Source: a virus. From it: a DNA stretch of 64,000 nt. The notes under the pieces are model-generated. The model was not told the DNA's origin. It was given only the letters and a program-made list of their open reading frames with translations, and ran no database searches. A program made the position numbers and the translations under genes. Location: positions 21,260 to 85,259 of the IMG/VR virus record IMGVR_UViG_3300025009_000009; one strand, given 5' to 3'. Positions 19,524-64,000 of this stretch are shown here, piece by piece (position 1 is the first letter of the stretch; each line of letters starts with the position of its first letter).

Positions 19524-19566
19524 AAAAAAAAGGGAGAGCAGAACGCCCCCCCCCCCCCCCCCCCCC
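19524..19566 (-). terminator. Terminator with 21-base G/C homopolymer
   Basis: Downstream of the capsid stop (19594) the minus strand reads a run of 21 G, then CGTTCTGCT, CTCCC and eight T. G-run to CTCCC pairing plus the T-run gives an intrinsic terminator shape. The 21-base C tract on the plus strand (19546-19566) is remarkable in this AT-rich genome and could be a sequencing or assembly artefact in length. Confidence 0.7.
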
Positions 19567-29775: not shown

Positions 29776-31758
29776 TCATCTACGACGCTTAACTGTGAAA
29801 ATGTCACGAATACTCTGTTGAACGTCCGTAAGTTGTTGTTTTTGTTTAGGAGAGTAGAATCCACCTTTAGGTAAATCGTAATCTTTAGGGTATGGATTTT
29901 TATGATAGTTGATGTTACGTATCAAATAAATCAATGCATCTAAACAGTCAAAATGTGAACCATCAGCAGCTTTCTCATATTTAGTTCTTGCTTTATTCCA
30001 AGTAGCATTCATTAAATGAAATATTAGGTTTATACATCTAGGATTTATCTTTAGTTTTTTACCAGAAACTTTCATACGTAAAGCGTTTATTTGTGCGTTT
30101 TTATCATCTTTTCTAGTTGGTATAAACGATAAGTTGTGTAAGTTATTAAAGTCTACGATAATTTGCCAACTAGTATCACATATCCTTGACTCTGGTAATT
30201 TGTCACCCCAAAGCATCTTTTCCTTTAATTTAATAGCATCAGCCATATCAATAGTTGTATATTCTTTACCATTGAATACTAATTCATCTTCAACAACAAT
30301 TTCATCATTTCTAAAATCATAATACGCAAACAAAAAAGCTGTCCAATCTAGTATACCAAAGTCACCAGAAGTATAACATGTATAGTGTGCTGGTCGTTTC
30401 CATGTTTGTATTATGTCTTTCATTTTTTCATCAGTAGCTTCTGGTATAACTAATGAATTTGTGTCAGCTAATAATTTACATAAGTATTCTCTTTTAAAAT
30501 CTATAGAATCTTTACCACCAACAGCATTAGCCATTTCTTCTATTTCATATCCTTTAAATCTAGGACAATCATATATAGTTCTTCTGGTATATGCTTTTTT
30601 ATAGTCAGCTTCTTTAATATATTTATTAAATGTATGTGCTGCTGAAGATGGTGGAGTTGAAATCATGATTGTTAATCTACGCTTAGACGTATTCATAGTT
30701 GGAAATAATACAGATTTATAATAGTAGTCAAATTCAGATGAATCCATAAATCCACACTCATCCATGAATACCCTATCAAATCTTTGACCTCTAGCATTTT
30801 CAATATTACCAGAGTCTGTACCAATACAATGAATTTCAGAACCATTATCAAATACGAATACGTTTTCTTGAGTATTAAATTTAGGTCTTAATTCTTTAGG
30901 ACAATCTATACATATTTCATTGAAACGAGATTTAATTAATTTTCTAGCTTGATTCTGTCTAGGTAAAACGTAAGCTATTTTAAAGTTGGGATTACGAATA
31001 CATTCTTCGATTGCTAATAAAGAAATTAGGAAAGAGTTATGAGTTACCAATCCATCACCAGTAAGATATAAATGTGTATCATTATCAACAGTAATATCCC
31101 AACATTGTTCCATTCTTCTATTTTCTTTTCTAACACTAACAGAATCTGTCACACCATTTACAACAGTTACTATTTTATCATACTCATTAAAATCTTTTAG
31201 TGGTTTCTCCAAAAGATTACCTTCACCATTTTTAACTAACCAGTAATGTTCATCAGTACAACCAGCTAAAACTTTACCATTACCAACTAAATCAAATACT
31301 TCTTCAACACCACAATCTATTTTATCAACAACTTTAGTTGGACTTACACTACCGTCTTTATTATATCCATAAATAATATCACCAATATTAATATCTTTGA
31401 TTAACTTTGGTCCAGTTTCTGTGATGACGTAAGTACTTGAATTTATTGACTTTCCAGTTTGTCTTGAGAGGCACCATACTAACAAATTATTCTTAGTAGT
31501 ATGGTAATTTTCATATAAACTTTTCTGATTACTATCCAACTTCCAATGAAGTACTCCTCTTTTCCACAATTTAACAGCAGCTTCTCTTTGTAATCTCTGT
31601 TTTTTAGCATCAGGTTTAGTTGTACCTTTAGGTCTACCTCTAGGTACAATCTTGACTAAATCTTCTTCAGTATTTATTATTTTACTATCAACAACAGGTT
31701 CTTTATCCTCAACAACTTCTTCTATGATAGTTTTATCTCCACTATTCATCATCTTCAC
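29776..31758 (-). CDS. terL: Terminase large subunit precursor with mini-intein
   Basis: 660 residues as read from a GTG at 31758; ATGs at 31752 and 31749 are likelier starts because AGGTG lies just upstream. The host protein has WCLSRQTGKS (Walker A, about 95-104), VFMDE (Walker B, 330-334), the coupling motif ISTPP (about 366-370) and a C-terminal nuclease domain with SGDFG (Asp466), CDTS and FDCLDALIY. A 138-residue intein (104-241) splits the Walker A loop, so the ATPase should work only after splicing. The protein packages DNA into the procapsid. It overlaps the candidate small terminase gene. Confidence 0.9.
   Translation of the reverse strand: MKMMNSGDKTIIEEVVEDKEPVVDSKIINTEEDLVKIVPRGRPKGTTKPDAKKQRLQREAAVKLWKRGVLHWKLDSNQKSLYENYHTTKNNLLVWCLSRQTGKSINSSTYVITETGPKLIKDINIGDIIYGYNKDGSVSPTKVVDKIDCGVEEVFDLVGNGKVLAGCTDEHYWLVKNGEGNLLEKPLKDFNEYDKIVTVVNGVTDSVSVRKENRRMEQCWDITVDNDTHLYLTGDGLVTHNSFLISLLAIEECIRNPNFKIAYVLPRQNQARKLIKSRFNEICIDCPKELRPKFNTQENVFVFDNGSEIHCIGTDSGNIENARGQRFDRVFMDECGFMDSSEFDYYYKSVLFPTMNTSKRRLTIMISTPPSSAAHTFNKYIKEADYKKAYTRRTIYDCPRFKGYEIEEMANAVGGKDSIDFKREYLCKLLADTNSLVIPEATDEKMKDIIQTWKRPAHYTCYTSGDFGILDWTAFLFAYYDFRNDEIVVEDELVFNGKEYTTIDMADAIKLKEKMLWGDKLPESRICDTSWQIIVDFNNLHNLSFIPTRKDDKNAQINALRMKVSGKKLKINPRCINLIFHLMNATWNKARTKYEKAADGSHFDCLDALIYLIRNINYHKNPYPKDYDLPKGGFYSPKQKQQLTDVQQSIRDIFTVKRRR
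31036..31449 (-). other. Mini-intein in terminase, no endonuclease domain
   Basis: Residues 104-241 of the terminase frame interrupt CLSRQTGK / SFLISLL. The intein begins with Ser, carries a block-B like TDEH (His171), and ends GLVTHN followed by Ser: penultimate His240, terminal Asn241 and nucleophile Ser242. Removing it restores an intact Walker A GKS. At 138 residues it has the splicing domain only, lacking a homing endonuclease, so it cannot mobilise itself in cis. Confidence 0.9.
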
Positions 31759-37503: not shown

Positions 37504-37908
37504 ATGATAACACTTAAAGAGGTTATTGGAGATATAGATTTCGATGAATTAGACGAACAGATACAAGATAATATAATAGATCTTCTGGATAAAATTAACA
37601 TAATTAGAAAAGCTTGGAATAAACCAATGATTGTTACATCAGGGTTTAGAACTATGGAAGATCATATAAGAGTATATAGAGAAAAAGGAATAACTGATGT
37701 AACTAAAATACCTATGAAATCGTTACATTTAACAGGAAAAGCTATTGACATATATGATCCAAATTTTGAGTTAACAGATTGGTGTAAATTAAATAATAGT
37801 AAAATACTAAAAGAAGTGGGGTTATGGTGTGAAGATGATAAGTCAGTAAAAAGATTACATTTTCAAACGAGTCCTCCTCGTAGTGGTAGTCGATGGTTTA
37901 AACCTTAA
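37504..37908 (+). CDS. M15-family peptidase, candidate endolysin
   Basis: 134 residues, the length of compact M15_3-type peptidases. Zinc and catalytic landmarks are SGFRT (about 46-50), SLHLTGKAIDIYD (73-85, His75 and Asp82) and RLHF (117-120, His119), followed by PPRSGSRW. The enzyme should cut peptide bonds in the cell-wall stem or cross-bridge. No signal peptide or wall-binding domain is visible. It sits in the early block, far from the holin-like gene in the late block. Confidence 0.85.
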   Translation: MITLKEVIGDIDFDELDEQIQDNIIDLLDKINIIRKAWNKPMIVTSGFRTMEDHIRVYREKGITDVTKIPMKSLHLTGKAIDIYDPNFELTDWCKLNNSKILKEVGLWCEDDKSVKRLHFQTSPPRSGSRWFKP

Positions 37909-37918
37909 AGGAGTTAAT

Positions 37919-38365
37919 ATGGAATTTATAAGAAATATACAAGCTAATATTATTGTTTTTTATGAAACGGTTAAAAGATTTTTCTATTATGGTTGGAAAC
38001 TAAGAAAGAATGGAGATTGGGATTATAATTACTTATATAAGATCATACATCTTAAGATTTGTAATATAGAAAAAGCTATAAAAAATGATAAACTACATAG
38101 TTGGTCTAAACGAGATTTTAGAGATCTTAAAATAGCTAAGAATTGTTTAGATAGACTAATAAACGACAGATATACAGTATATAGTAATGAAGATAGATAT
38201 CTTGAAAGAAAAGTACATCCTGAATTTGGTATAGTTTATAGTATTAAACCTGATAAACTTAAATTTTATAAAAAATCTTTAGAAAAAGAACAATATCTAC
38301 GTAATCAAGATATGGATATGTTTTGTAAGATACTAAAAGAAAGAAGTACCCGATGGTGGATATAA
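37919..38365 (+). CDS. Hypothetical protein (148 aa)
   Basis: 148 residues from the ATG at 37919, preferred over an upstream start because AAAGGAG lies in front of it. Helical, rich in Lys/Arg/Tyr, with a repeated Tyr/Asn/Asp pattern and several Trp (GWKLRKNGDWDYNY). No enzyme signature. It follows the peptidase gene directly. Confidence 0.6.
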   Translation: MEFIRNIQANIIVFYETVKRFFYYGWKLRKNGDWDYNYLYKIIHLKICNIEKAIKNDKLHSWSKRDFRDLKIAKNCLDRLINDRYTVYSNEDRYLERKVHPEFGIVYSIKPDKLKFYKKSLEKEQYLRNQDMDMFCKILKERSTRWWI

Positions 38366-38369
38366 TACT

Positions 38370-38873
38370 ATGTTAAAGTATATAGTAAACAAAGATACTA
38401 TAAATCTATGTAAACAGTTTGCTTTAGATTCAGTAGAAAGTAGCTTAGATGAATATTCAAAACGCAATCAATCAAACAAAGAATTAATCATTCAACAAAT
38501 ATTTGAAGGTAAGGTAGCAGAATTTGCTGTGTATCAATATTACAAAGATAGACAACTTGATTGTACTTTACCTGATATATCAATTTATACCAAAAGAAAA
38601 AAGTCATTCTCATCAGATTTACAAGTAGGTATGTATCATATACATGTTAAATCACAAAATTTAAGTTCACAAAGAAGATATGGTAAGTCTTGGTTATTTC
38701 AAGCTAAAGATCCTTTGTTTAAAAAAGCTACAGAATACGATATATGTGTGTTCTGTACTGTTGATGAAAACGTTGTAACTATTGAATTAAAGGATCAATT
38801 TGTTAATCTTACATTTTCAGAACCTAAATTAGATAAATTAAAAGGAAATAAAAAAGCTTTTTATCTTGACTAA
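38370..38873 (+). CDS. Hypothetical protein, possible PD-(D/E)xK-like fold
   Basis: 167 residues. EGKVAEFAVYQYYKD (about 50-64), then SDLQVGMYHIHVKSQ (about 84-98) and a C-terminal beta part give an E...D...hVK order like restriction-endonuclease folds. The usual Glu before the Lys is His here, so activity is doubtful. It is the last gene before the promoter at 38866. A divergent nuclease or a fold relative is possible. Confidence 0.4.
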   Translation: MLKYIVNKDTINLCKQFALDSVESSLDEYSKRNQSNKELIIQQIFEGKVAEFAVYQYYKDRQLDCTLPDISIYTKRKKSFSSDLQVGMYHIHVKSQNLSSQRRYGKSWLFQAKDPLFKKATEYDICVFCTVDENVVTIELKDQFVNLTFSEPKLDKLKGNKKAFYLD

Positions 38874-38894
38874 AATTTAAAATTAGTTTATACT
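38866..38894 (+). promoter_or_regulatory. Sigma70-type promoter (TTGACT-17-TATACT)
   Basis: TTGACT and TATACT with a 17-base spacer; the -35 overlaps the stop codon of the previous gene. Transcription near 38900 produces a leader that contains a hairpin and the pseudoknot at 38934-38979. Confidence 0.8.
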
Positions 38895-38933
38895 TTATAA
38901 ATAACGACGATGCTCAGGTAGCTCCTGACTGAT

Positions 38934-38979
38934 CTATGGGATAACGGTTAGCCATAGTAAGAATAACAAAAATCCGTTA
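38934..38979 (+). promoter_or_regulatory. H-type pseudoknot leader before a ribosome site
   Basis: Stem 1 CTATGG / CCATAG (38934-38939 with 38952-38957) encloses TAACGG (38942-38947), which pairs with CCGTTA (38974-38979). The joining loop 38958-38973 is A-rich (TAAGAATAACAAAAAT). A small hairpin TCAGG / CCTGA lies just upstream, and AAAGGA follows 6 bases after. Shape and position resemble small pseudoknot riboswitches, though no known class matches by eye. Confidence 0.55.
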
Positions 38980-38995
38980 CAATTAAAGGATATAT

Positions 38996-39121
38996 ATGTT
39001 TTTAATTATTTTTTGGTTAGGAGCAGCTACTACAGTTACAGCTATTGGAATTGATAGTGATTGGAAGTTTGAGTTAAATGGTATAAAATTATATAAAGAA
39101 GAAAGAGCAATAAAGGAGTAA
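38996..39121 (+). CDS. Small membrane protein (41 aa)
   Basis: ATG at 38996 with AAAGGA 7 bases upstream; ends TAA at 39121. Residues 1-19 are hydrophobic (FLIIFWLGAATTVTAIGI), the rest charged. It is the first gene behind the pseudoknot leader, so the leader may regulate it or the whole operon with the RtcB gene. Confidence 0.65.
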   Translation: MFLIIFWLGAATTVTAIGIDSDWKFELNGIKLYKEERAIKE

Positions 39122-39125
39122 TTTT

Positions 39126-39338
39126 ATGAAAAAAGCGATTTTAATTAGTGATAATACATCGATAAATAGAGTTAAAAAAATTTTTAAAAATATAAAGAAC
39201 ATTACAAATGATATTGATACGTTGCGTGGTGAAAAATATGATGAAATTATAATCGTTGATGGTACAAATATAAAAAATTTTGAATATATTATGGACACAT
39301 TAAAATCTATTTCTGATAAAATAACATTTTATATATAG
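39126..39338 (+). CDS. Hypothetical protein (70 aa)
   Basis: 70 residues, alternating strand and helix (KKAILISDNTS...DEIIIVDGTNI), like a small Rossmann-type or response-regulator-type half domain. AAGGAG in front, 4 bases after the previous stop. No known family. Confidence 0.55.
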   Translation: MKKAILISDNTSINRVKKIFKNIKNITNDIDTLRGEKYDEIIIVDGTNIKNFEYIMDTLKSISDKITFYI

Positions 39339-39715: not shown

Positions 39716-39853
39716 ATGACGAAGATTTTAAACCTTCTTAAACAAAGAATAGAAGTACATTTAAGTGGTTTTAACGTAAGAGAGAAAGATATACCAGAGT
39801 TAACGAAACTTATATTAGAAGAAATAGAAGATTTACTGAAGGATAAGAAATGA
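39716..39853 (+). CDS. Small helical protein (45 aa)
   Basis: ATG at 39716 with GGAG 4-5 bases upstream, TGA at 39853 overlapping the RtcB start. The peptide is helical and charged (KILNLLKQRIEVHLSGFNVREKD...). Coupling to RtcB by the ATGA overlap suggests a functional or expression link. Confidence 0.6.
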   Translation: MTKILNLLKQRIEVHLSGFNVREKDIPELTKLILEEIEDLLKDKK

Positions 39854-41028
39854 AATATATAGACACTGAAAATGTTATAATTAAAAGTTGGTGTAATGAA
39901 CCTGAAGAAAGTACTATAGAACAAGCTAAAAATCTAGCAAATCTTCCTTTTGTATTTAGACAAGTTTGTTTAATGCCAGACACACATATGGGTCATGGTA
40001 TGCCTATTGGTGGAGTTTTAGCTACTAAAGGTGTTGTAATTCCAAACGCTGTTGGTGTTGATATTGGGTGTGGAATGTATTGTGTTAAAACCTCATTAAA
40101 AGTAAACGAAATAGATACTGAAACTATAAAAAAAATAATGACTATAATTAGAAAAAAAGTACCTGTAGGATTTGCTCACCACCAAAAAGAACAGCCATTA
40201 CAATATATACCAAAAATTGACAATAATTTATTTTTTACTCATGAGTTATATATTATAAATAATGAATTTTCATCGGCTATGAAACAAGTTGGTACATTAG
40301 GTGGTGGTAATCATTTTATTGAAATTCAAAAAGGATCTGATGGTTATGTATATTTTATGATACATACAGGAAGTAGAAATTTAGGTAAAAAAGTATGTGA
40401 TTATTATAATAAAATAGCTAGAGATATAAATGATAAATGGTTTTCTAAAGTACCTAAAGAATGGGATTTAGCGTTTTTACCATTGGATACAAGAGAAGCT
40501 AAACTATATATAAACGAAATGACATTTTGTTTAGAGTTTGCGTTTTTAAATAGAAAACTTATTGCCGAAAGAATAAAAGAATCGTTTTTAGATGTTATTT
40601 CTTGCTCTTTTACTGATGAAATTAATATACATCATAATTATGCAGCTATTGAACATCATTTTGATTCTAATGTTGTTGTACATAGAAAAGGAGCTACATC
40701 GGCTAGAGATGGTGAATTAGGATTAATACCAGGATCACAAGGAACATCTTCTTATATAGTTAGAGGAAAAGGAAACGTAGAATCGTTCATGAGTTGTTCA
40801 CATGGTGCTGGTAGAAAACTTAGTAGAACAAAAGCTAGAAATGAATTAAATTTAGAAAATGAACAAAAGATTTTAAACGATAAAGGTATTATACATTCAA
40901 TAAGAAATCAAGAAGATTTAGATGAAGCTAGTAATGCATATAAAGATATTGATATAGTAATGGAAGAACAAAAAGATTTGGTTGATATTTTAATAAAACT
41001 AGAACCTATGGGTGTAATCAAAGGATAA
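39850..41028 (+). CDS. rtcB: RtcB-type RNA ligase
   Basis: 392 residues with the family landmarks: MPDTHMGHGMPIGGV (42-56), GVDIGCGM with Cys74, TLGGGNHFIE (149-158), HTGSRNLG (172-179), HHNYAAIEHH (261-270), RKGATSA (279-285) and SCSHGAGRKLSR (315-326), where His318 should be guanylylated. RtcB joins 2',3'-cyclic-phosphate (or 3'-phosphate) RNA to 5'-OH RNA with GTP and Mn2+. In phages it can repair tRNA or mRNA cut by host defence nucleases. Length agrees with the shorter bacterial and phage forms. Confidence 0.95.
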   Translation: MKYIDTENVIIKSWCNEPEESTIEQAKNLANLPFVFRQVCLMPDTHMGHGMPIGGVLATKGVVIPNAVGVDIGCGMYCVKTSLKVNEIDTETIKKIMTIIRKKVPVGFAHHQKEQPLQYIPKIDNNLFFTHELYIINNEFSSAMKQVGTLGGGNHFIEIQKGSDGYVYFMIHTGSRNLGKKVCDYYNKIARDINDKWFSKVPKEWDLAFLPLDTREAKLYINEMTFCLEFAFLNRKLIAERIKESFLDVISCSFTDEINIHHNYAAIEHHFDSNVVVHRKGATSARDGELGLIPGSQGTSSYIVRGKGNVESFMSCSHGAGRKLSRTKARNELNLENEQKILNDKGIIHSIRNQEDLDEASNAYKDIDIVMEEQKDLVDILIKLEPMGVIKG

Positions 41029-43386: not shown

Positions 43387-43620
43387 ATGAGAAAGTATAA
43401 ATTCTTAGATAAGTTATGGAATAGAAAGACTAGAAATTATCATCTAATAGTACAAATCCCTGGATATTGTTATGGAAACAAGGAAGAAGATGTATTATAT
43501 TTTTACTATACAGTACCATTCAAAGGTAATGGTAGAATGATTGGTCGAACTCAGATACAATGGTCAGAATTAGAAATAGATACACTTTTTAAAAAAGTAC
43601 CCAAATTTCCTTGGGAGTAA
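43387..43620 (+). CDS. Hypothetical protein (77 aa)
   Basis: 77 residues, basic start and a small beta domain with Trp and Tyr, ending FKKVPKFPWE. The FPWE ending recurs inside the protein at 57299 (NFPWENE), a small link between distant early genes. AAGGA precedes the ATG. Confidence 0.55.
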   Translation: MRKYKFLDKLWNRKTRNYHLIVQIPGYCYGNKEEDVLYFYYTVPFKGNGRMIGRTQIQWSELEIDTLFKKVPKFPWE

Positions 43621-43652
43621 TTAGTTTATTAATAATTTAACTTGGAGCTAAC

Positions 43653-43850
43653 ATGAAATTGAAAAGAACTGTTTACAAATCGAAAAACAAAGAAGCTTAC
43701 TATGTTCTTAGTACTCTTAATGATGTTATAGTTGAAAGAGTCGACTTTGATACTTTGGAGAAAGTCATAACATATCTTGATGAAACCGAAAAACAGTTAA
43801 AAAATGAAGGATACTCGCTAGAGAGAGAAAACGATAATATGATGCAATGA
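43653..43850 (+). CDS. Hypothetical protein (65 aa)
   Basis: 65 residues, mainly helical and charged, with a beta start (KRTVYKSKNKEAYYVLSTL). GGAG in front. No motif recognised. Confidence 0.55.
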   Translation: MKLKRTVYKSKNKEAYYVLSTLNDVIVERVDFDTLEKVITYLDETEKQLKNEGYSLERENDNMMQ

Positions 43851-43911
43851 ATAAAGGAGAAATCCTTAACGATGTTCATTCACGAAGTTCATGAGTGATC
43901 AGGAGTGATAT

Positions 43912-44157
43912 ATGAAATTTTATGCTATAAAAGATATTGGTGATAATTTTTTAGCTAAAGAGTATTGTGAAGGATGTAAGTATTCAACAATGACACAAGA
44001 AGGTGCTTGTTTATATGAAACATCACACCAACTACATACGATACTAAACAACGAAAATATGATGTTACTAATTTTTGAATCTAAAGAAAAAGCAGATAAA
44101 TACATTAAAGATACTGGATACATTTGTTATCATTCAATTTGTTTAGATGATATTTAG
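43912..44157 (+). CDS. Hypothetical protein (81 aa)
   Basis: 81 residues with Cys spread through the chain (CEGCKYS, CLYETSH, CYHSICLDD) that could bind a metal. Behind a hairpin-like repeat and a GGAG site. It is the last gene before the long gene-free region. Confidence 0.55.
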   Translation: MKFYAIKDIGDNFLAKEYCEGCKYSTMTQEGACLYETSHQLHTILNNENMMLLIFESKEKADKYIKDTGYICYHSICLDDI

Positions 44158-45438
44158 TTTATGATGCATTGCTTTAATAATATAGAGGTAAAATTTTTAC
44201 AGAAGTCTAGATCTACATTTACTCATCCCATTTCACACATACCCTCCCCTTAGTCTAACCATACCATACTTATTGCAAGATCTATACCAATACATATTCT
44301 TTGTTTATTGGTATGAGTATTGCAATTGCATATAGTATGCCAAACCAATATCACAACTAAGTGTTTTAGTAATGGTACACACTTATATTAACTGGGTACT
44401 TATACTAAGTTAAGCTGTTATATACAACACCATAGTGATATCGATAGATGTTATATAAAACATCATAACAATAACATCGTCTTAGTAACATTTTATTGTT
44501 AATAACATATCTGTTAATATCTATCAAAGTAATTTATGTTCATGAGTGTTAAGCCATACTAATTTTAGTATAACTTGAGATTATACGGTTATTAGTATCT
44601 TTCACTTCGTTCAAGAAGTGTATTACTTATAAGAGATATAAGATAAACTATTAGCAACTAAACTTGTATAGTTGTCACTTAACAACAATATCTACGTGTT
44701 GTTTATTGACAACAGTATTATTATTTTTAATGGTAAGTATAAGATAAAGATTGATCAACTAGACAAGTATAGTAGTATTAGTATTACTTATAAGAAGATA
44801 CTAGATGTAGTAGATAAACTAATAGAGCTAACTTTGGGTATAGTATGGGCTTGTATGTTTAGTGATGCATGAGATTACAGAGAGATAACGTGAGAAGTTA
44901 ATGATTACAGGTAGATAGAAATTATACTATTAATACTATTACCATATATATTCGATAGTTTACATCATTTAATCTGTTCTCGGTATAATTTATTTATTGT
45001 AATAAAACCATACCATACAATTTAGTCTGATGTCCCTAGAGAACGTTAGCTAACATACCGTAATTAATTTTAACAATTAATCACGTGTTACGATGTACTC
45101 ATTTCGCTATCGTTTCACTACGCTGCATTCGTGTTAACATGCTTAACGCAGATAACTTAGTTAACAGATTGTTTAGTTTTGTATAATATACTAATTTGTA
45201 TATCTATACAGATACTTGATAAATCGATTTAACACACTGTTTCAGACACTATTCAATAATTACTAGATGTTAGCCGAAAATCATAAAACATAGCCCGAAA
45301 AAATAATTCAATTTTAGAATTATATCAGTGAGTTATCATATAAAAAAGTTAGCTAAGATCTTTTTGATCGTTCTGCTACATAACTGTATTACTTTATGTT
45401 CCATAAATATTATTGACAACTTAGCTGTTTTGATGTGG
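44158..45438. other. 1.3 kb gene-free region, candidate origin or control zone
   Basis: No credible gene was found; one 66-codon frame at 44672 needs a TTG start without a ribosome site. The sequence is rich in short inverted repeats: GATGTT / AACATC near 44450, CACTTC / GAAGTG at 44603-44620, the palindrome GTTAGCTAAC near 45050, TTAATT / AATTAA near 45063-45080 and GTTAA / TTAAC near 45140. Stop codons are dense in all frames. Replication origin, packaging site or regulatory RNA are possibilities. Confidence 0.5.
44603..44620. repeat. Inverted repeat CACTTCGTTCAAGAAGTG
   Basis: An 18-base element with a 6-base stem. It is the exact reverse complement of the element at 53699-53716, which lies before a gene start. 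The exact match 9 kb apart shows a mobile or conserved element. Confidence 0.7.
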
Positions 45439-45467
45439 TTGACTTTTTGATGCGGTTGTGTTAAGAT
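45439..45467 (+). promoter_or_regulatory. Sigma70-type promoter (TTGACT-17-TAAGAT)
   Basis: TTGACT, 17 bases, TAAGAT, a weaker -10 box than the others. It opens the long accessory operon that begins at 45507. Confidence 0.55.
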
Positions 45468-45506
45468 TTTTATATGAACAACGAAAAAATAAAAAAGGTA
45501 AATAAT

Positions 45507-45692
45507 ATGAAGTTTGAATTCTTAAGAACTAAGTATCTTATGTTAGTAGCTAAGTTAACTTATATCAAGATGACCTATGATCTTGAGGATAAGGACACTA
45601 TCTACATGATAGAAAAATTTGAAAATCTTATCAATTGTTTCAAGAAGATAATAGCACGTAGAGACCAACAAAGAATATTTATTAAAGATTGA
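45507..45692 (+). CDS. Hypothetical protein (61 aa)
   Basis: Start placed at ATG 45507, where AAAGGT lies 8 bases upstream; an ATG at 45474 would be almost leaderless. The peptide is helical, Lys/Leu/Tyr/Met-rich, with a basic end (IIARRDQQR). No function visible. Confidence 0.55.
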   Translation: MKFEFLRTKYLMLVAKLTYIKMTYDLEDKDTIYMIEKFENLINCFKKIIARRDQQRIFIKD

Positions 45693-45701
45693 GGTGATAC
45701 G

Positions 45702-45776
45702 ATGAAAAACGATAACTTTGTGTTTATTTTAACATTCAGTGTGTTTATGGTTATATTAGTAACTAATTTAATATAA
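45702..45776 (+). CDS. Tiny membrane peptide (24 aa)
   Basis: ATG at 45702 with GAGG upstream. The residues FVFILTFSVFMVILVTNLI form a single membrane helix. Short length lowers confidence but spacing and ribosome site fit a translated gene. Confidence 0.5.
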   Translation: MKNDNFVFILTFSVFMVILVTNLI

Positions 45777-45793
45777 AATCGTTCAGGAGTGAT

Positions 45794-46006
45794 ATGAAGT
45801 TATTACTTAACGGTATTGAGATTGTTAGAGCTATAAGTATTAAAGAGTTAAAGAGTAGAGTTAACAAGTTAAAAGTAATTCAAGTTAACAACGTTCTTAA
45901 TTTAGTTAGTATTATATTTGAAACTAATAACGGTATAATGGAGTACATTATTATCTGTAATTCTAATAAGTCTAGTCGATTTGTTTATAAAGTATTAAAG
46001 GACTAA
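45794..46006 (+). CDS. Hypothetical protein (70 aa)
   Basis: 70 residues of beta and helix with many Ile/Val/Lys/Asn; CAGGAG 6 bases upstream of the ATG. No motif recognised. Followed by the hairpin repeat at 46014. Confidence 0.55.
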   Translation: MKLLLNGIEIVRAISIKELKSRVNKLKVIQVNNVLNLVSIIFETNNGIMEYIIICNSNKSSRFVYKVLKD

Positions 46007-46013
46007 TATTACT

Positions 46014-46040
46014 GAACGTACATTCCTGAATGGAATGAAG
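46014..46040 (+). repeat. Intergenic hairpin repeat, copy 1
   Basis: A 27-base block identical to 47323-47349. Its core CATTCCTGAATGGAATG forms a 6-base-pair hairpin, and a GAGGTATAT ribosome site lies shortly downstream. Related elements precede genes at 43912, 46692, 52369, 53736, 55482 and 63636. Confidence 0.7.
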
Positions 46041-46055
46041 AATAATGAGGTATAT

Positions 46056-46235
46056 ATGGATAAAATTTATAACTATGAGATATCAGGAATAGACACTAAG
46101 GATTATCCAGATTTTTGTGATGCATATGTTAGTTATGCAGAACATGAGGATGGTACACCACTAACAGATGAAGAGCTTGATGAAGTCAATGAGAGTGGTA
46201 TGGTATATGAACTTGTTATCAACTATTTATTTTAA
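46056..46235 (+). CDS. Small acidic protein (59 aa)
   Basis: Start at ATG 46056 with GAGGTATAT upstream. The sequence is acidic (TKDYPDFCDAYVSYAEHEDG) with an LTDEELDEV helix. Small acidic early proteins often mimic DNA or block host proteins, but this is speculative here. Confidence 0.55.
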   Translation: MDKIYNYEISGIDTKDYPDFCDAYVSYAEHEDGTPLTDEELDEVNESGMVYELVINYLF

Positions 46236-46248
46236 CTAAGGATGGTAT

Positions 46249-46419
46249 ATGGATATTAAATATAAGATAGTTTATGAAGATAGCGGTTATAATGGTTTAT
46301 ACTTCTTTTTTATTTACTTTAAACGTGGGTCAATTACTAATTGGGTTATAGCATCTTCACATTCGTTTAAAACCAAAGAAGAAGCTCAACACCATATAAA
46401 TACCGTTTTAAAAGCTTAA
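46249..46419 (+). CDS. Hypothetical protein (56 aa)
   Basis: ATG at 46249 after AAGGATGGTAT, TAA at 46419. A beta sheet with several Phe/Tyr (YNGLYFFFIYFKRG) followed by a helix with His pairs. Proper spacing makes it likely real. No family. Confidence 0.55.
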   Translation: MDIKYKIVYEDSGYNGLYFFFIYFKRGSITNWVIASSHSFKTKEEAQHHINTVLKA

Positions 46420-46497
46420 CTCGTTTTTAGGCTATGTTTTGTGATAATTAGAGGCATATAAGAGATTGACCTTAACTGTTTAACAAAGGATAAAATT

Positions 46498-46650
46498 ATG
46501 GACCGATATTTAATAAATTATATAGATTGTTTTAACTGTATGCATACAACTAAGGATAGTTACACTCATAAAGAAATGATAGATATGTTAGATATACTAA
46601 GTAACTTTAAATCTATCTTAGTTGTAAATGTAAATAAGATAACTGAATAA
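46498..46650 (+). CDS. Hypothetical protein (50 aa)
   Basis: ATG at 46498, AAAGGA upstream, TAA 46650. Cys-containing start (YIDCFNCMHTTKDSYTH) followed by a helix and a strand. Possible metal binding by two Cys and His; otherwise unknown. Confidence 0.55.
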   Translation: MDRYLINYIDCFNCMHTTKDSYTHKEMIDMLDILSNFKSILVVNVNKITE

Positions 46651-46691
46651 TAACATTGAGAGGTAATATTACCGAACGGAGTAAGGTATAT

Positions 46692-46835
46692 ATGTATAAA
46701 ATAGAATGTATTTATAAGTGTGGTAACTATATGTTTGTGAGTAACTTAAGTCAAGATAGACTTGACTTCTTTTTGGATAACTTAGTTTTAGATAGAAATG
46801 TTTTAAAGGTTATTGTTAGCCGAGAGGAGATATAA
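46692..46835 (+). CDS. Hypothetical protein (47 aa)
   Basis: ATG at 46692 behind GTAAGGTATAT, TAA 46835. A beta hairpin start (KIECIYKCGNYMFVS) and a helix. The intergenic segment before it carries a partial copy of the repeat (TTACCGAACGGAGTAAGG). Confidence 0.5.
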   Translation: MYKIECIYKCGNYMFVSNLSQDRLDFFLDNLVLDRNVLKVIVSREEI

Positions 46836-46858
46836 TATCAAACAAAGTGAGGTATAAT

Positions 46859-46936
46859 ATGTTACCACATATAATATTTATAATTGGTTTAATAGGAATA
46901 TTAGTAGCTGCATATATAACTTTTAATCATAAATAG
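46859..46936 (+). CDS. Tiny membrane peptide (25 aa)
   Basis: ATG at 46859 with GTGAGG upstream, TAG 46936. One hydrophobic helix (IIFIIGLIGILVAAYITF) and a short basic end. Similar in type to the peptides at 45702, 53736 and 58746. Confidence 0.5.
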   Translation: MLPHIIFIIGLIGILVAAYITFNHK

Positions 46937-46945
46937 GAGATTTTT

Positions 46946-47691: not shown

Positions 47692-47730
47692 TAAAGAAGA
47701 GATATAATAACGTTTAAATAGGAGATGTTT

Positions 47731-48513
47731 ATGAATGAAAATACAATAGTGTGTCCTACAAATGCAACAACTAGTTATAATGTTACCGAAAAGTATAAGT
47801 TTCAATCTACTAAGGATATTATTAGTTTTTTTGAGTCTCAAGGGTTTATGTTAGCTAATAAAAAGATCTGTAAGGTTAGAAATAGATCTAAACAAGGCTT
47901 TCAAAAACATATGTTACGGTTTAATCATGAGGCGTTAAGGATTGATGATCAAAACACGTTACAAGTCTTAGTTAAGAATAGTCATGATGGATCAAGCTCT
48001 CTTCAAATTAATCTAGGTATATATAGGCTTGTATGTTCAAATGGTATGGTTATAGGTAGAGAATTTGTTGGTTATAATTTAAAACATATAGGTCATAACT
48101 TCTATATTAAATTAGAAGAATCTTTAAAAGAATTGATAGTAGCTGCACCTAAATACAAAGAAATGATTATAAGAATGCAGAATGTTAACTTAACCAATGA
48201 TCAAAAAGACGAAATTATAAAAAAAGCGGTTAACTTGAGGCTACAAAGCATTGAAAATGTGGATAACGTTGACGTTAGTCGTTCTTTTAGTCCTATTAGA
48301 ATAGAAGATAATACCAATGACTTATATACTGTACTTAATTTGGTACAAGAGAGAGTTATTAGAGGCGGTATAAAATATACAACAAAGACTGTAAATGAAA
48401 ATAACGTTGTTGAGATTAAAAATCATTCAACTAAAAAAATTAATAGTATTGATAAAGATTTGGAGTTAAATAAGAATTTGTTTGATATAGTATCTTCTTA
48501 TTTAGTAGCTTAA
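47731..48513 (+). CDS. DUF932-type phage/plasmid protein
   Basis: 260 residues from ATG 47731; GGAG lies 8 bases upstream, too close to an ATG at 47725. The segment LRFNHEALRIDDQNTLQVLVKNSHDGSSSLQINLGIYRLVCSNGMVIG (about 60-110) matches the DUF932 family in phages and plasmids, including the conserved R...CSNG. Its function is unknown, perhaps DNA-related. It lies just before the first repeat-protein gene. Confidence 0.75.
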   Translation: MNENTIVCPTNATTSYNVTEKYKFQSTKDIISFFESQGFMLANKKICKVRNRSKQGFQKHMLRFNHEALRIDDQNTLQVLVKNSHDGSSSLQINLGIYRLVCSNGMVIGREFVGYNLKHIGHNFYIKLEESLKELIVAAPKYKEMIIRMQNVNLTNDQKDEIIKKAVNLRLQSIENVDNVDVSRSFSPIRIEDNTNDLYTVLNLVQERVIRGGIKYTTKTVNENNVVEIKNHSTKKINSIDKDLELNKNLFDIVSSYLVA

Positions 48514-48525
48514 TGAGGTATATGT

Positions 48526-49203
48526 ATGACACAATATGAAAAAGACTTAGCTGCTGTTAAACAAAATGGTTATGCTTTGAAATATGTTGAACATCAAACT
48601 CCCGAATTATGTTTAGCTGCTGTTAATCAATATGGTTATGCTTTACAATTTGTTAAGCATCAAACAGAAGAAATATGTTTAGCTGCTGTTAAACAAAATG
48701 GTTATGCTTTGAAATATGTTAAACATCAGACAGAAGAAATATATTTAGCTGCTGTTAAAGAGAATGGTATGGCTTTACAATTTGTTAAACATCAAACAGA
48801 AGAAATATGTTTAGCTGCTGTTAAACAAGACGGTTATGCTTTGAAATATGTTAAACATCAAACAGAAGAAATTTGTTTAGCTGCTGTTAAACAAGACGGT
48901 TATACTTTGGAATATGTTAACCATCAAACAGAAGAATTATGTTTAGCTGCTGTTAAACAAAATGGTTATGTTATACAATATGTTGAATATCAAACAGAAG
49001 AAATATGTTTAGCTGCGGTTATAGAGAATGGTTATGCTTTATGTTGGGTTAAACATCAAACAGAAGAATTGTGTTTAATTGCAGTCAATCAAGACGTTCG
49101 TGCATTGTATTATGTTAAGTCTGAAATTAAAACTAAAGAGTTTATGTTACGTTGCCTTGAAAATAATATAGCTTGTATAAAATATATGGAGATAGAATGC
49201 TAA
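48526..49203 (+). CDS. DUF4116-like repeat protein 1 (9 units)
   Basis: 225 residues: a short cap (MTQYEKDL), nine near-identical 22-residue units with the core AAVKQNGYALKYVKHQTEEICL, then a cap RCLENNIACIKYMEI. Two units make one DUF4116-type domain; the expected fold is an alpha solenoid. Variation between units is focused at the two residues after the first Lys and in the aromatic pair. The function is unknown. Its last residues overlap the start of the PhaR-like gene. Codon use is near-identical to the sister genes. Confidence 0.8.
   Translation: MTQYEKDLAAVKQNGYALKYVEHQTPELCLAAVNQYGYALQFVKHQTEEICLAAVKQNGYALKYVKHQTEEIYLAAVKENGMALQFVKHQTEEICLAAVKQDGYALKYVKHQTEEICLAAVKQDGYTLEYVNHQTEELCLAAVKQNGYVIQYVEYQTEEICLAAVIENGYALCWVKHQTEELCLIAVNQDVRALYYVKSEIKTKEFMLRCLENNIACIKYMEIEC
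48565..48824 (+). repeat. 260-base direct repeat shared with the right-edge gene
   Basis: Bases 48565-48824 match 63741-64000 with no difference seen, inside two different repeat-protein genes 15 kb apart. Since the window ends there, the true identity may be longer. Confidence 0.9.
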
Positions 49204-50283: not shown

Positions 50284-50340
50284 CAGCCTTTTTATTAAAA
50301 AAGTGGTTATAATTTGAATTATGTTTACTATGAGGTATAT

Positions 50341-50952
50341 ATGAAAGAAAAAAAGAAATTTAGTTTAGTTGAAAATAATATCAAAGTAGATGCTTTAATA
50401 TGGAATTTACCAGCTATTATTACATGTAAAGCAAACTTAGAATGTCATAAGTATTGTTATTGCAAAAAAGATAAACGTTTTCCAAGTGTTGAGGTTAGCC
50501 GAACTAATAATTTACAATTCAGTAAGTCAACAGACTTTGTAAATGAACTAACTAACGCTATTAAAAGTAATAAAAAGCATTCAACGGTTAGACTTCACGC
50601 GTCGGGTGATTTTTATAGTGTTCAATACATAAGTGATTGGTATAAAATAATAAGTAATTGTCCAGAAGTAACTTTTTATGCTTACACAAAACGTGATGAT
50701 CTATTTACTAAAGAGATATTAGCCGAAAAGCCTAACAACTTAACTTTGATATTTAGCGTTGATGGTTTATTTGAGACAATTCAAGACATACCAAATATCG
50801 ATGTTCCACAAGGTTATAACAAGATAGCATTTGTAACAAAAAATGATACAAATTGTGTTGCTCAAAAAGACGATGATAAAAAATGTATTAGTGGTTGTAA
50901 GAAATGCTTGAAGTCATGTAAAGAAAATATTATTGTATTTAAAAAACATTAA
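50341..50952 (+). CDS. GP88-family-like Cys-rich phage protein
   Basis: 203 residues from ATG 50341 (GAGG upstream). The pattern KANLECHKYCYCKKDKRF (about 24-41), RLHASGDFYSVQYISDWYKI (about 83-102), FYAYTKRDD and the Cys cluster CISGCKKCLKSC (about 184-195) fit the phage gene product 88 family (GP88). Cys positions suggest an iron-sulphur cluster. The activity is unknown. It follows the PcfJ-like gene. Confidence 0.7.
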   Translation: MKEKKKFSLVENNIKVDALIWNLPAIITCKANLECHKYCYCKKDKRFPSVEVSRTNNLQFSKSTDFVNELTNAIKSNKKHSTVRLHASGDFYSVQYISDWYKIISNCPEVTFYAYTKRDDLFTKEILAEKPNNLTLIFSVDGLFETIQDIPNIDVPQGYNKIAFVTKNDTNCVAQKDDDKKCISGCKKCLKSCKENIIVFKKH

Positions 50953-52316: not shown

Positions 52317-52368
52317 TAATATAGTATTATCAAATGTACATTCTTGAACGAAGTAAAGGAAAGTTAAA

Positions 52369-52908
52369 ATGACACAATATGAAAACGACTTAGCTTGGAT
52401 TAAAGACAATGGTTGTAATTTACGTTATATTTACAATCAGACCGATGAGATTTGTTTAGCTGTTGTTAAACAAAACGGTAGAGCTTTGGAATATGTTAAA
52501 CATCAGACAGAAGAAATATGTTTAGCTGCTGTTAAAGAGAATGGTATGGCTTTACAATTTGTTAAACATCAAACAGAAGAAATATGTTTAGCTGCTGTTA
52601 AGCAAAATGGTTATGCTTTACTATATGTTAAGCATCAAACTGATGAATTATGTTTAGCTGCTGTCAATCAAAATGGTTATGCTTTGAAATATGTTGAATA
52701 TCAAACACCAGAATTATGCTTAGTTGCTGTTACTAATTATGGTAATGCTTTGAAATATGTTAAGCATCAAACTGACGAATTATGCTTAGTTGCGATTAAA
52801 AAATATGAATGGTGTTTGTGTTATGTTAAACCAGAGATTAAAACTAAAGATTTTTTATTACGATGTTTAGAAATTAATATAGCTTGTATAAAATATATGG
52901 AGATATAG
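52369..52908 (+). CDS. DUF4116-like repeat protein 2 (7 units)
   Basis: 179 residues: cap MTQYENDL, seven 22-residue units, cap RCLEINIACIKYMEI. The first unit (AWIKDNGCNLRYIYNQTDEICL) differs from the others and is shared with protein 3. The first 227 bases match gene 3 (53808) with a single difference seen, giving Met/Thr in unit 3. AAAGGA lies upstream, and the stop is followed at once by the next ATG. Confidence 0.8.
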   Translation: MTQYENDLAWIKDNGCNLRYIYNQTDEICLAVVKQNGRALEYVKHQTEEICLAAVKENGMALQFVKHQTEEICLAAVKQNGYALLYVKHQTDELCLAAVNQNGYALKYVEYQTPELCLVAVTNYGNALKYVKHQTDELCLVAIKKYEWCLCYVKPEIKTKDFLLRCLEINIACIKYMEI

Positions 52909-53698: not shown

Positions 53699-53716
53699 CA
53701 CTTCTTGAACGAAGTG
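53699..53716 (+). repeat. Inverted repeat CACTTCTTGAACGAAGTG
   Basis: Perfect 6-base-pair stem with a 6-base loop, 20 bases before the tiny gene at 53736. It is the exact reverse complement of 44603-44620 and belongs with the intergenic hairpin family. Confidence 0.7.
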
Positions 53717-53735
53717 AAAGATAATTAGGTATAGT

Positions 53736-53807: not shown

Positions 53808-54347
53808 ATGACACAATATGAAAACGACTTAGCTTGGATTAAAGACAATGGTTGTAATTTACGTTATATTTACAATCAGACCGATGAGATTTGTTTAGCT
53901 GTTGTTAAACAAAACGGTAGAGCTTTGGAATATGTTAAACATCAGACAGAAGAAATATGTTTAGCTGCTGTTAAAGAGAATGGTACGGCTTTACAATTTG
54001 TTAAACATCAAACAGAAGAAATATGTTTAGCTGCGGTTATAGAGAATGGTTATGCTATATGTTGGGTTAAACATCAAACAGAAGAATTGTGTTTAATTGC
54101 TGTTAAAAAATATAGTGATGTTTTGCGTTTTGTTAAACATCAAACAGAAGAAATTTGTTTAGCTGCTGTTAAACAAGACGGTTATGCTTTGGAATATGTT
54201 AAACATCAAACTGATGAAATATGTTTAGCTGCTGTTAATCAATATGGTAATGCTTTGAAATATGTTAAACCAGAGATTAAAACGGAAGAATTTTTATTAC
54301 GATGTTTAGAAACTAATATAGCTTGTATAAAATATATGGAGATATAG
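53808..54347 (+). CDS. DUF4116-like repeat protein 3 (7 units)
   Basis: 179 residues, same caps as proteins 1, 2 and 4. Units 1-3 come from the same DNA block as gene 2; unit 4 (AAVIENGYAICWVKHQTEELCL) resembles unit 8 of protein 1; the last 217 bases match the end of gene 4 exactly. It is thus a mosaic of modules. The stop precedes the nuclease gene ATG by 3 bases. Confidence 0.8.
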   Translation: MTQYENDLAWIKDNGCNLRYIYNQTDEICLAVVKQNGRALEYVKHQTEEICLAAVKENGTALQFVKHQTEEICLAAVIENGYAICWVKHQTEELCLIAVKKYSDVLRFVKHQTEEICLAAVKQDGYALEYVKHQTDEICLAAVNQYGNALKYVKPEIKTEEFLLRCLETNIACIKYMEI

Positions 54348-55481: not shown

Positions 55482-56417
55482 ATGACACAATATGAAAAAG
55501 ATTTAGCTGCTGTTAAAGAAAATGGTAGAGCTTTGAAATATATTGAACATCAAACACCAGAATTATGTTTAACTGCTGTTAATCAAAATGGTTATGCTTT
55601 GAAATATGTTGAATATCAAACAGAAGAAATATGTTTAGCCGCTGTTAAGGAAAATAGTTATGCTTTGAAATATGTTAAACATCAGACTCCAGAACTTTGT
55701 ATGATTGCTGTTAAAGAAGACGGTCTTACTTTATGTTTTGTTAAACAACAAACAGAAGAAATATGTTTAGCTGCTGTTAAACAGAATGGTTATGCTTTGG
55801 ACTATGTTAAACATCAGACAGAAGAAATATACTTAGCCGCTGTTAAGCAAAATGGTTATGCTTTACAATTGGTTAAACAACAAACTGATGAAATATGTTT
55901 AGCTGCTGTTAATCAATATGGTTATGCTTTACAATTGGTTAAACAACAAACTGATGAAATATGTTTAGCTGCTGTTAAACAAAATGGTTATGCTTTGAAA
56001 TATGTTAAACATCAGACTCCAGAACTTTGTATGATTGCTGTTAAAGAAGACGGTCTTACTTTATGTTTTGTTAAACAACAAACAGAAGAAATATATTTAG
56101 CTGCTGTTAAAGAGAATGGTATGGCTTTACAATTTGTTAAACATCAAACAGAAGAAATATGTTTAGCTGCTGTTAAACAAGACGGTTATGCTTTGAAATA
56201 TGTTAAACATCAAACAGAAGAAATTTGTTTAGCTGCTGTTAAACAAGACGGTTATGCTTTGGAATATGTTAAACATCAAACTGATGAAATATGTTTAGCT
56301 GCTGTTAATCAATATGGTAATGCTTTGAAATATGTTAAACCAGAGATTAAAACGGAAGAATTTTTATTACGATGTTTAGAAACTAATATAGCTTGTATAA
56401 AATATATGGAGATATAG
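55482..56417 (+). CDS. DUF4116-like repeat protein 4 (13 units)
   Basis: 311 residues, the longest copy: cap MTQYEKDL, thirteen 22-residue units, cap RCLETNIACIKYMEI. A block of two units (KQNGYALxYVKHQTPELCM then KEDGLTLCFVKQQTEE) occurs twice within the gene. Its last four units repeat modules seen in proteins 1 and 3. The gene begins with GAGG and a partial intergenic repeat (55398-55470). Unit-number changes between copies fit unequal recombination. Confidence 0.8.
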   Translation: MTQYEKDLAAVKENGRALKYIEHQTPELCLTAVNQNGYALKYVEYQTEEICLAAVKENSYALKYVKHQTPELCMIAVKEDGLTLCFVKQQTEEICLAAVKQNGYALDYVKHQTEEIYLAAVKQNGYALQLVKQQTDEICLAAVNQYGYALQLVKQQTDEICLAAVKQNGYALKYVKHQTPELCMIAVKEDGLTLCFVKQQTEEIYLAAVKENGMALQFVKHQTEEICLAAVKQDGYALKYVKHQTEEICLAAVKQDGYALEYVKHQTDEICLAAVNQYGNALKYVKPEIKTEEFLLRCLETNIACIKYMEI

Positions 56418-56418
56418 T

Positions 56419-56736
56419 ATGCGTTATATTATAGTTTTTATTATATTTATAATACTAATATCATTAGATACATCACAATCTAATTTAAAAAATCAATCTT
56501 GTTATCTAGGTTATGTTGTTAAACTAGAAAAACAAGAAAAGAAGTATATACTAAATATAAAACTTAATAACGAAATCCAAGTATTAACCATTAATGAAAA
56601 TAGTGATGTAAAATTCATTGATTTATTACAAAATGTTACAGGTAAAAATGTTTTAATTGGTATAAAATATATGTATACTAATAATGAATATAGTGATAAA
56701 CTTGAAAATGTTAAAATAATAAGGAGCAAGATATGA
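56419..56736 (+). CDS. Membrane-anchored or secreted hypothetical protein
   Basis: 105 residues. The start YIIVFIIFIILISLDTS is a membrane helix or signal peptide; the remainder is Lys/Asn-rich with a beta pattern (KYILNIKLNNEIQVLTI). Begins 2 bases after repeat gene 4, so they are one cassette, and overlaps the next gene. Confidence 0.55.
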   Translation: MRYIIVFIIFIILISLDTSQSNLKNQSCYLGYVVKLEKQEKKYILNIKLNNEIQVLTINENSDVKFIDLLQNVTGKNVLIGIKYMYTNNEYSDKLENVKIIRSKI

Positions 56737-57299
56737 GAAACTTTCCATTAGAAAAGGATAAAATAGATAAAAACCAAATATGGACTATTAGTTCAAATGG
56801 AACACCAATGTATGTTTGTATTGGTAATGTTGATTCGTTTAATCTTTTATATAACTTACCTCAAAATCTTTTAGATGAACTACTAGAATATGGTTGGTGT
56901 AATCAATATAATAGATTTCATTTTGAAACGTATAACTTTAAATTAAATGATACAATAAAAGATACTAATACAAATACCCAATATGAAATATCCGATGTTA
57001 CTATGAACATATGTAATAATATATTTGTTGCTAAATTATGGGATATAGACAATTTTAAGAGTATAGAAATGTCTTTAGGTGATTTAGAATATAATATAAG
57101 TAGTCAAGAATATGAAATTATAGAAAAGGAAGAAGATTTAGTATCTAAAGAAATTGATGATTTTTTTTCTGGTGTTGATGAAAAAAAGGAATTACCTTGT
57201 TCTATATATAATAAAGATTGTGAGATAGTAACTTCATATATGCCTGTATCTGGTAAATCCTTTAAAATGTGTAGAACCCATAAGAAGGAGGTATTTTAA
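56733..57299 (+). CDS. Hypothetical protein with C-terminal zinc-like motif
   Basis: 188 residues, acidic, mixed alpha/beta. The C-terminus CSIYNKDCEIVTSY...CRTHKKE (about 156-185) has Cys and His spaced as a zinc knuckle. Overlaps both neighbours. No family recognised. Confidence 0.5.
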   Translation: MRNFPLEKDKIDKNQIWTISSNGTPMYVCIGNVDSFNLLYNLPQNLLDELLEYGWCNQYNRFHFETYNFKLNDTIKDTNTNTQYEISDVTMNICNNIFVAKLWDIDNFKSIEMSLGDLEYNISSQEYEIIEKEEDLVSKEIDDFFSGVDEKKELPCSIYNKDCEIVTSYMPVSGKSFKMCRTHKKEVF

Positions 57300-57622
57300 T
57301 GGAAAAATTTAAAATTGGTGATAAATTTAAATATAGAGATGATATATATTTCCAAATTATAAACATAGGTGTGTATGATAATGGTGATCCTAGATATAAA
57401 CTTGAATGTTATGAACGTCAGTTAATATCGATAGACCATTGTGGTGATGAATGTTTATTGGTGTGTAAAAAAATTGTTAACTTTCCTTGGGAAAATGAGA
57501 CTTGTAAAGAAATTAAAAATGAATGTGAACATCTTTGGTTTGAAACTATATCACCATTTTCGGGTATAAAATGGAAAGATTGTAGTAAATGTGGTATGAA
57601 GTGGGAAGATTATCAAAAATAA
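57299..57622 (+). CDS. Small zinc-ribbon-tailed protein
   Basis: 107 residues. An N-terminal beta domain (KIGDKFKYRDDIYFQIINIG) is followed by NFPWENETCKEIKNECEHLW and CSKCGMKW (about 60-103), a Cys4-type ribbon. NFPWE echoes the end of the protein at 43387. GGAGG lies upstream. Confidence 0.55.
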   Translation: MEKFKIGDKFKYRDDIYFQIINIGVYDNGDPRYKLECYERQLISIDHCGDECLLVCKKIVNFPWENETCKEIKNECEHLWFETISPFSGIKWKDCSKCGMKWEDYQK

Positions 57623-63603: not shown

Positions 63604-63635
63604 GGTGTTATTGCTGAAAGAATTGAGGTATATGT

Positions 63636-64000
63636 ATGACAGAATATGAAAAAGATTTAGCTATGGTTAAACGAGATAGTTATGCTTTGGAATACGTTAA
63701 ACATCAAACTTATGAATTATGTTTAGCTGTGGTTATAGAGAATGGTTATGCTTTGAAATATGTTGAACATCAAACTCCCGAATTATGTTTAGCTGCTGTT
63801 AATCAATATGGTTATGCTTTACAATTTGTTAAGCATCAAACAGAAGAAATATGTTTAGCTGCTGTTAAACAAAATGGTTATGCTTTGAAATATGTTAAAC
63901 ATCAGACAGAAGAAATATATTTAGCTGCTGTTAAAGAGAATGGTATGGCTTTACAATTTGTTAAACATCAAACAGAAGAAATATGTTTAGCTGCTGTTAA
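63636..64000 (+). CDS. DUF4116-like repeat protein 5, truncated by window edge
   Basis: Starts at ATG 63636 behind TTGAGGTATATGT. Cap MTEYEKDL, then five units and part of a sixth before the right edge; no stop is seen. From 63741 the DNA is identical to 48565-48824 in repeat gene 1. The first unit (AMVKRDSYALEYVKHQTYELCL) is the most divergent. Confidence 0.8.
   Translation, partial: MTEYEKDLAMVKRDSYALEYVKHQTYELCLAVVIENGYALKYVEHQTPELCLAAVNQYGYALQFVKHQTEEICLAAVKQNGYALKYVKHQTEEIYLAAVKENGMALQFVKHQTEEICLAAV

Follow-up and report, generated by a model that had tools for sequence, protein, structure and literature searches.

A possible non-coding early control region in a circular tailed phage, and a covarying RNA in four related phages

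Introduction

Phage intergenic early promoter regions are non-coding stretches that stand before a block of small early genes. We examined about 1.35 kb of viral DNA which an initial annotation, made from the letters alone, had described as gene-free and rich in inverted repeats, with an origin of replication, a packaging site and a regulatory RNA as candidates, and asked what role such a stretch might have. The analysed window is 64,000 nt long (G000:C1:21260-85259) and comes from a source record of 85,259 bases; positions are those of the window unless a relative or its contig is named.

Results

Setting in the phage genome

The source record has a terminal overlap of 260 bases. This overlap is situated within a DUF4116 repeat gene, so by itself it is no proof of a circle. 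Another contig from this phage (3300025121, 85,057 bases), spanning the window from 52434 round to 52495, is consistent with a circle, and the assembly fits a circular genome of ~85.0 kb. The presence of portal and terminase genes identifies a tailed phage, whose late genes run leftward from ~32.5 kb and whose early genes run rightward from 32.9 kb. The region is identical in four other contigs of the same phage, which are thus uninformative on its conservation.

Several other features were recorded along this genome. Members of the DUF4116 repeat gene family, with 66-base repeats, occupy 48526-49203, 52369-52908, 53808-54347, 55482-56417 and 63624-64000; those at 52369 and 53808 share 88% identity, and contig ends of the phage fall within such genes. 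Although the genome has only 28% GC, a run of 21 C residues (19546-19566) separates two late genes next to one of the late-promoter motifs, and contig 3300002097 terminates at about this run. An RtcB-type RNA ligase gene (39850-41028, plus strand) had no match among nine relative contigs, and no tRNA genes were found in the scanned stretches of the window and relatives. The terminase large subunit gene (29776-31758, minus strand) carries a probable mini-intein of ~140 aa within its Walker A motif. This candidate is visible as an insertion by comparison with the terminase of a Silvanigrella phage, and parts of the insertion would be intein motifs. Leader hairpins of the CATTCC-TGAAT-GGAATG type, with paired changes between copies, precede small early genes and are repeated at 46020, 47272, 47329 and 55421 (plus strand).

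The region appears non-coding, with one borderline frame

At a cut-off of 80 aa, the longest ORF-free stretch in the 85,259-base record is 44158-46945. Lowering the cut-off to 60 aa makes 46236-46945 (710 bases) the longest. Next come 44873-45473 (601 bases) and 44158-44671 (514 bases), which are the halves of the region, separated by a single TTG-started ORF of 66 aa. Only six ORFs, of 30-66 aa, are present in the region, and they score -0.34, 0.03, 0.02, 0.11, -0.25 and -0.26 bits per codon, whereas 12 small ORFs nearby score 0.10-0.40 and six antisense ORFs range from -0.36 to 0.00. With its score of 0.11, the 66-aa ORF reaches the lower edge of the small-gene range; it is the sole region ORF of at least 45 aa, and no relative of it was found at E 1e-4. 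No relatives were found for the directly flanking ORFs at 43912 and 45474 either. As the start of the downstream frame is either 45474 or 45507, the right-hand boundary of the region may be 45473. Strand skews drop to zero here within a strongly skewed arm (GC 0.01 and AT -0.02, versus +0.22 and +0.12 on the left flank and +0.29 and +0.11 on the right), while GC content resembles that of the surroundings.

Comparison of the region with the phage's own record by tblastx gave nothing outside itself better than E 0.08. Together with the ORF search, this revealed no conserved translated frame, the observation that the initial annotation had named as counting against its view. A protein-coding reading was set aside on codon scores, tblastx and relatives, one ORF remaining borderline. 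A pseudogene of other genes of the same phage was rejected on the tblastx result, which gave no trace. A tRNA or Rfam family was also rejected, none being found in scans of the region. The description of 1.35 kb as gene-free is therefore borne out by the absence of ORFs of at least 80 aa, the neutral skews and the low scores of five of the six ORFs, and is qualified by the 66-aa frame: the region appears non-coding, with one small ORF borderline.

Inverted repeats and folding are modestly raised

Perfect palindromes in the region number 34 at 6 nt (38.0 expected), 17 at 8 nt (11.3), 3 at 10 nt (3.4) and 1 at 12 nt (1.1). Hairpins with a 6-bp stem and a loop of at most 12 nt were found 20 times versus 10.5 in shuffles (s.d. 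3.7; largest shuffle 22), that is, ~2.6 s.d. above, while those with an 8-bp stem occurred 0 times versus 1.0 with loops of at most 12 and 6 times versus 3.0 with loops of at most 40. By tile, the fold z of the region is the third lowest among 64 (-1.01; mean -0.36, s.d. 0.33). In 300-nt windows (seven per strand), it averages -1.33 on the plus strand and -2.16 on the minus strand, versus -0.25 and -0.12 in 30 control windows per strand. The plus-strand stretch 44250-45100 gave -2.34 (20 shuffles), and the region folds better on the minus strand, where the windows at 44908 and 45058 reached -3.3 and -3.2. With palindromes at chance and hairpins and folding moderately raised, the reported richness in inverted repeats is a modest effect, seen in short hairpins above shuffles.

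The hairpin copy initially reported at 44603 is real (Table 1); its inverted recurrence is accompanied by a weaker copy at 52341-52369, just upstream of a DUF4116 gene, and the element is the sole terminator-like site in the scan. An exact 21-nt hairpin in the viral contig L021 was taken as chance because the stretch concerned shows no similarity to the window by tblastx and the hairpin falls within ORFs in that contig. At the right end of the region, a predicted promoter stands directly upstream of the ORF at 45474. As a class, promoter-like sites were not above chance in the 2.6 kb from 43600 to 46200 (18 found, 20.3 expected).

Table 1 Features of the window and of the RNA in related phages
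Feature	Position	Strand	Basis or remark
ORF-poor, skew-neutral region, proposed early control region	44158..45473		ORF scan, skews, codon scores
Strongest hairpin, arms 21 nt, 81% complementary	44272..44326		Repeat scan (I1)
Two adjacent similar 22-nt units (86%), short self-complementary arms	44413..44467		Repeat scan (D3); arms read from sequence
25-nt hairpin element	44596..44620		Exact inverted copy at 53699-53723
66-aa TTG-started ORF	44672..44872	+	Borderline coding score, 0.11 bits per codon
Half match to late-promoter motif, judged chance	45205..45222	-	4 mismatches; first 11 bases only match
Sigma-70-like promoter TTGACT-17-TAAGAT, TG before second hexamer (predicted)	45439..45467	+	Consensus scan only
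First small early ORF after region, 72 aa	45474..45692	+	Alternative start 45507
Small early ORF	46035..46235	+	Relative in G002, 46% over 62 aa
DUF932-like gene	47725..48513	+	Relatives downstream of RNA in G001, G003
phrog_1392 gene	50314..50952	+	Relatives downstream of RNA in G001, G003
Late-promoter boxes, TTATCAAGTATTAATGTA-like	4907, 12676, 19480, 21885, 29758, 32574	-	Search upstream of late genes
Structured RNA, G001	L061:16623-16756	-	Covariation, no Rfam match
Structured RNA, G003	L068:6720-6850	-	Covariation, no Rfam match
Structured RNA, G005	L074:1-129	-	Covariation, no Rfam match
Structured RNA, G016	L110:14562-14662	+	Covariation, no Rfam match

Related phages have ORF-poor gaps at comparable positions

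Using a two-sequence alignment of the portal protein, we retrieved 20 loci, 4 from the same phage and 16 from relatives with 43-52% portal identity; the highest value, 52% for G016, extends over 147 residues only. Large ORF-poor gaps, each interrupted by a small opposite ORF, are present in G001 (56003-57396) and G003 (5839-7177) upstream of small ORFs, phrog_1392 and DUF932-like genes, and the window likewise has a large ORF-poor gap upstream of its DUF932-like and phrog_1392 genes, the latter presumably Gp88-like. The 870-base gap of G002 lies 5.2 kb upstream of its relative of ORF 46035, a spacing of 0.5 kb in the window, and is barely more folded than shuffles (z -0.70 and -0.82). The G001 gap is bordered on its far side by a gene of the opposite strand. 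Because of these differences in G002 spacing and G001 orientation, the gap position in relatives is comparable, not exactly conserved.

A C-rich DNA motif of the type ACACCCACCTACCCCC was noted at the upstream edge of the gap in G001 (57230), G002 (30300), G003 (7339), G005 (592) and G016 (14129). The five relatives' own sites, which had been picked by eye, rank 1, 1, 1, 1 and 2. A C-rich pattern search matched nine stretches, of which three were members and six an unrelated C-rich sequence. The more distant Silvanigrella phage (CP017838, L118) also has an ORF-poor gap, of 1.6 kb (37663-39279), in which 38000-38900 folds well below shuffles on both strands (z -4.9 and -4.4; 20 shuffles each); neither an Rfam match nor an R2 model match was found in that gap.

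Four relatives carry a covarying RNA

The gaps of G001 and G003 have a well-conserved block in common, and G005 holds this block at its contig end. When folded separately, the three sequences gave the same structure, consisting of a hairpin, a long interrupted hairpin and a three-way junction, with two-sided changes in 18 of 40 pairs. A covariance model built on these three (R1) found, among 10 contigs, its own members and G016 (39.7 bits, E 3.8e-7), the other six giving none. With G016 included, two-sided changes were counted in 26 of the 40 pairs; shuffles averaged 11.0, none of 500 was as high, and slid controls gave 1-5, although the four-sequence alignment was fitted to the structure, which favours this count. 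The matching single-sequence folds and the independent G016 match are not tied to that fit. The whole element folds with z -4.6 in G003 and -6.0 in G001 (20 shuffles each), and -5.5 in G016 (100 shuffles).

In four relatives, compensatory changes thus preserve the helices of an RNA on the early-sense strand, over a core of ~100-134 nt. From promoter-like and terminator-like sequence, we infer a full length of ~480-590 nt in G001 and G003. In the G001 stretch, 7 promoter-like sites were counted over both strands, where 2.8 were expected, and a terminator-like hairpin marks the element end; in G005, such sites are not in excess (5 versus 2.9 expected). Three repeats of a TT(T)(G/A)CCTA box, placed before a TTGAC-like or TTGT/TTGA-like box, occur in each of G001 and G005; G003 has TTGACA boxes without it, and a promoter regular expression had no match ahead of the G016 RNA. 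Within the relatives' RNA and next to it, the motif TTGACGCA occurs repeatedly. In G005, the RNA has a relative of ORF 35146 on its upstream side. The G005 and G016 contigs are too short to show whether DUF932-like and phrog_1392 genes follow a large ORF-poor gap there.

There were no Rfam gathering-level matches in the window, L061, L068, L065, L074, L110 or L118, and scans of the window region, G003 and G001 to E 10 returned only eukaryotic miRNA, snoRNA, IRES, virus or CRISPR names at E of at least 0.45. In the open-access literature, no paper was recognised as describing the RNA of G001, G003, G005 and G016, and neither the window DNA nor the G003 RNA matched anything in a phage collection. 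No convincing model match came from MW202554, MW202701 or the Silvanigrella phage (best 15.5 bits, E 0.31). A first RNA pattern matched seven stretches, two known copies and five unrelated. A match in a Chloroflexi MAG (L102) was discarded as chance because an ORF of 546 aa encloses it and the model has no match there.

The RNA is not recognised in the window

With filters off, the best R1 match in the window (18 bits, E 0.049) fell inside the region but on the minus strand, whereas the early genes are on the plus strand; R2 gave 15.9 bits (E 0.15), also on the minus strand, with an unrelated place scoring as high. Neither model matched G002. The C-rich motif has a loose echo at 44237, which is not among the genome's 12 best sites by weight matrix (C21 tract left out). 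A three-way-junction descriptor with at least 16 pairs matched the 64 kb 96 times on the plus strand and 63 times on the minus strand, including two and two in the region, which is not singled out. A loose form of TTGACGCA occurs three times in the window genome, once in the region (45143), and is not significant. Since R1 and R2 lack a significant early-strand match and the C-rich matrix is negative, all that ties the window to the relatives' RNA is an approximately shared position and moderate folding. It is unlikely that the region carries a strongly diverged representative of a new class of large structured RNAs, standing ahead of the early genes across a group of related phages and acting on early transcription.

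Alternative readings of the region

The rival that survives best, although we consider it unlikely, is a neutral or decaying spacer in which small genes have been lost and left remnants, the 66-aa frame perhaps being one that survives, with a promoter at its right end. The chance-level palindromes, the borderline ORF, the small-gene clusters with few relatives on both sides and the failure to recognise the RNA in the region would all suit such a spacer, whereas its length, which no other such stretch of the genome equals at a cut-off of 80 aa, its lower fold z than controls, the ORF-poor gaps of the relatives and the absence of any trace of paralogous genes argue against it.

An origin of replication, that is, an intergenic element where a phage initiator or an R-loop starts replication, is less probable still. 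A large AT-rich intergenic region on the early side, with short repeats and with a conserved C-rich DNA motif at the gap edge in five relatives, would be a plausible setting, but DnaA boxes (TTWTNCACA, a motif that does not cover other initiators) occur five times in the window and not once in the region, and there is no iteron array, the 10 direct-repeat families having two copies each (repeats with indels can be missed). In addition, GC content does not set the region apart, and the relatives' element is conserved as RNA helices. This candidate of the initial annotation therefore stays a rival lacking positive support.

The partial late motif reported at 45220 suggests a late or antisense non-coding RNA started on the minus strand, the strand with the lower fold z at 44908 and 45058. 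Half of the motif is indeed present. The real late motif, TTATCAAGT[AGT][TC]T[AT]ATGT[AG], sits elsewhere, upstream of late genes, and its consensus TTATCAAGTATTAATGTA precedes them at six minus-strand sites with 0-3 mismatches. The copy in the region scores 8.8 bits versus 24.6-27.3 for the six sites that built the matrix, and the 12 genome matches at up to four mismatches fall within the 9-16 of six shuffled genomes. With the motif at chance level and the relatives' RNA on the early-sense strand, an antisense RNA is very unlikely.

A packaging site or genome end has only the non-coding status of the region in its favour and is scarcely credible, as the large terminase gene is ~12 kb away and the placeable contig ends, each found either within a DUF4116 repeat gene or next to the C21 tract, indicate no terminus here.

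Discussion

We interpret the stretch as the non-coding early control region of a circular tailed phage of ~85 kb, a reading to which we give a probability of roughly 0.45 and in which the region possibly includes an early leader or a non-coding RNA. Three observations slightly temper this confidence: folding of the G002 gap is nothing out of the ordinary, neither the window nor G005 has an excess of promoter-like sites, and gene spacing differs. Of the three candidates raised initially, a regulatory RNA is the best supported, indirectly, by the covarying RNA of four relatives, although none is recognised in the window.

As such a control region, the stretch would separate two blocks of small rightward early genes and hold the promoter for the block starting at ~45474, and part of it would probably be transcribed as a structured leader or a separate non-coding RNA. 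Its most likely role may be to act in cis on RNA polymerase during early transcription, through antitermination or control of pausing, or to supply an abundant early RNA; the sequence does not discriminate between these. The RNA in the window may have diverged beyond recognition or been replaced.

The HK022 put RNA (PMC9378689) is ~70 nt long with two stem-loops, acts on RNA polymerase and lies just downstream of phage early promoters; it resembles the proposed element as a structured RNA ahead of early genes. The relatives' core differs in combining a hairpin, an interrupted hairpin and a three-way junction within what would be a longer element, for which antitermination is only proposed, and the window has no recognised copy. 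GOLLD and ROOL RNAs, often near tRNA islands according to PMC12286853, are similar as large, covarying, phage-encoded non-coding RNAs without known function. They differ in that the window, G001, G003, G005 and G016 have no Rfam gathering-level match and the scanned stretches have no tRNA gene. Set beside phage intergenic early promoter regions, the window stretch is longer than usual, and its relatives have a covarying RNA.

Examination of the region has thus led to a covarying RNA, with no Rfam match, in four related phages. Should the window region not be its counterpart, it would be an ordinary intergenic control region. If it is the counterpart, a fast-changing phage group would have retained, in front of its early genes, a long control RNA that is non-coding, and the role of this RNA in early transcription would be directly testable.
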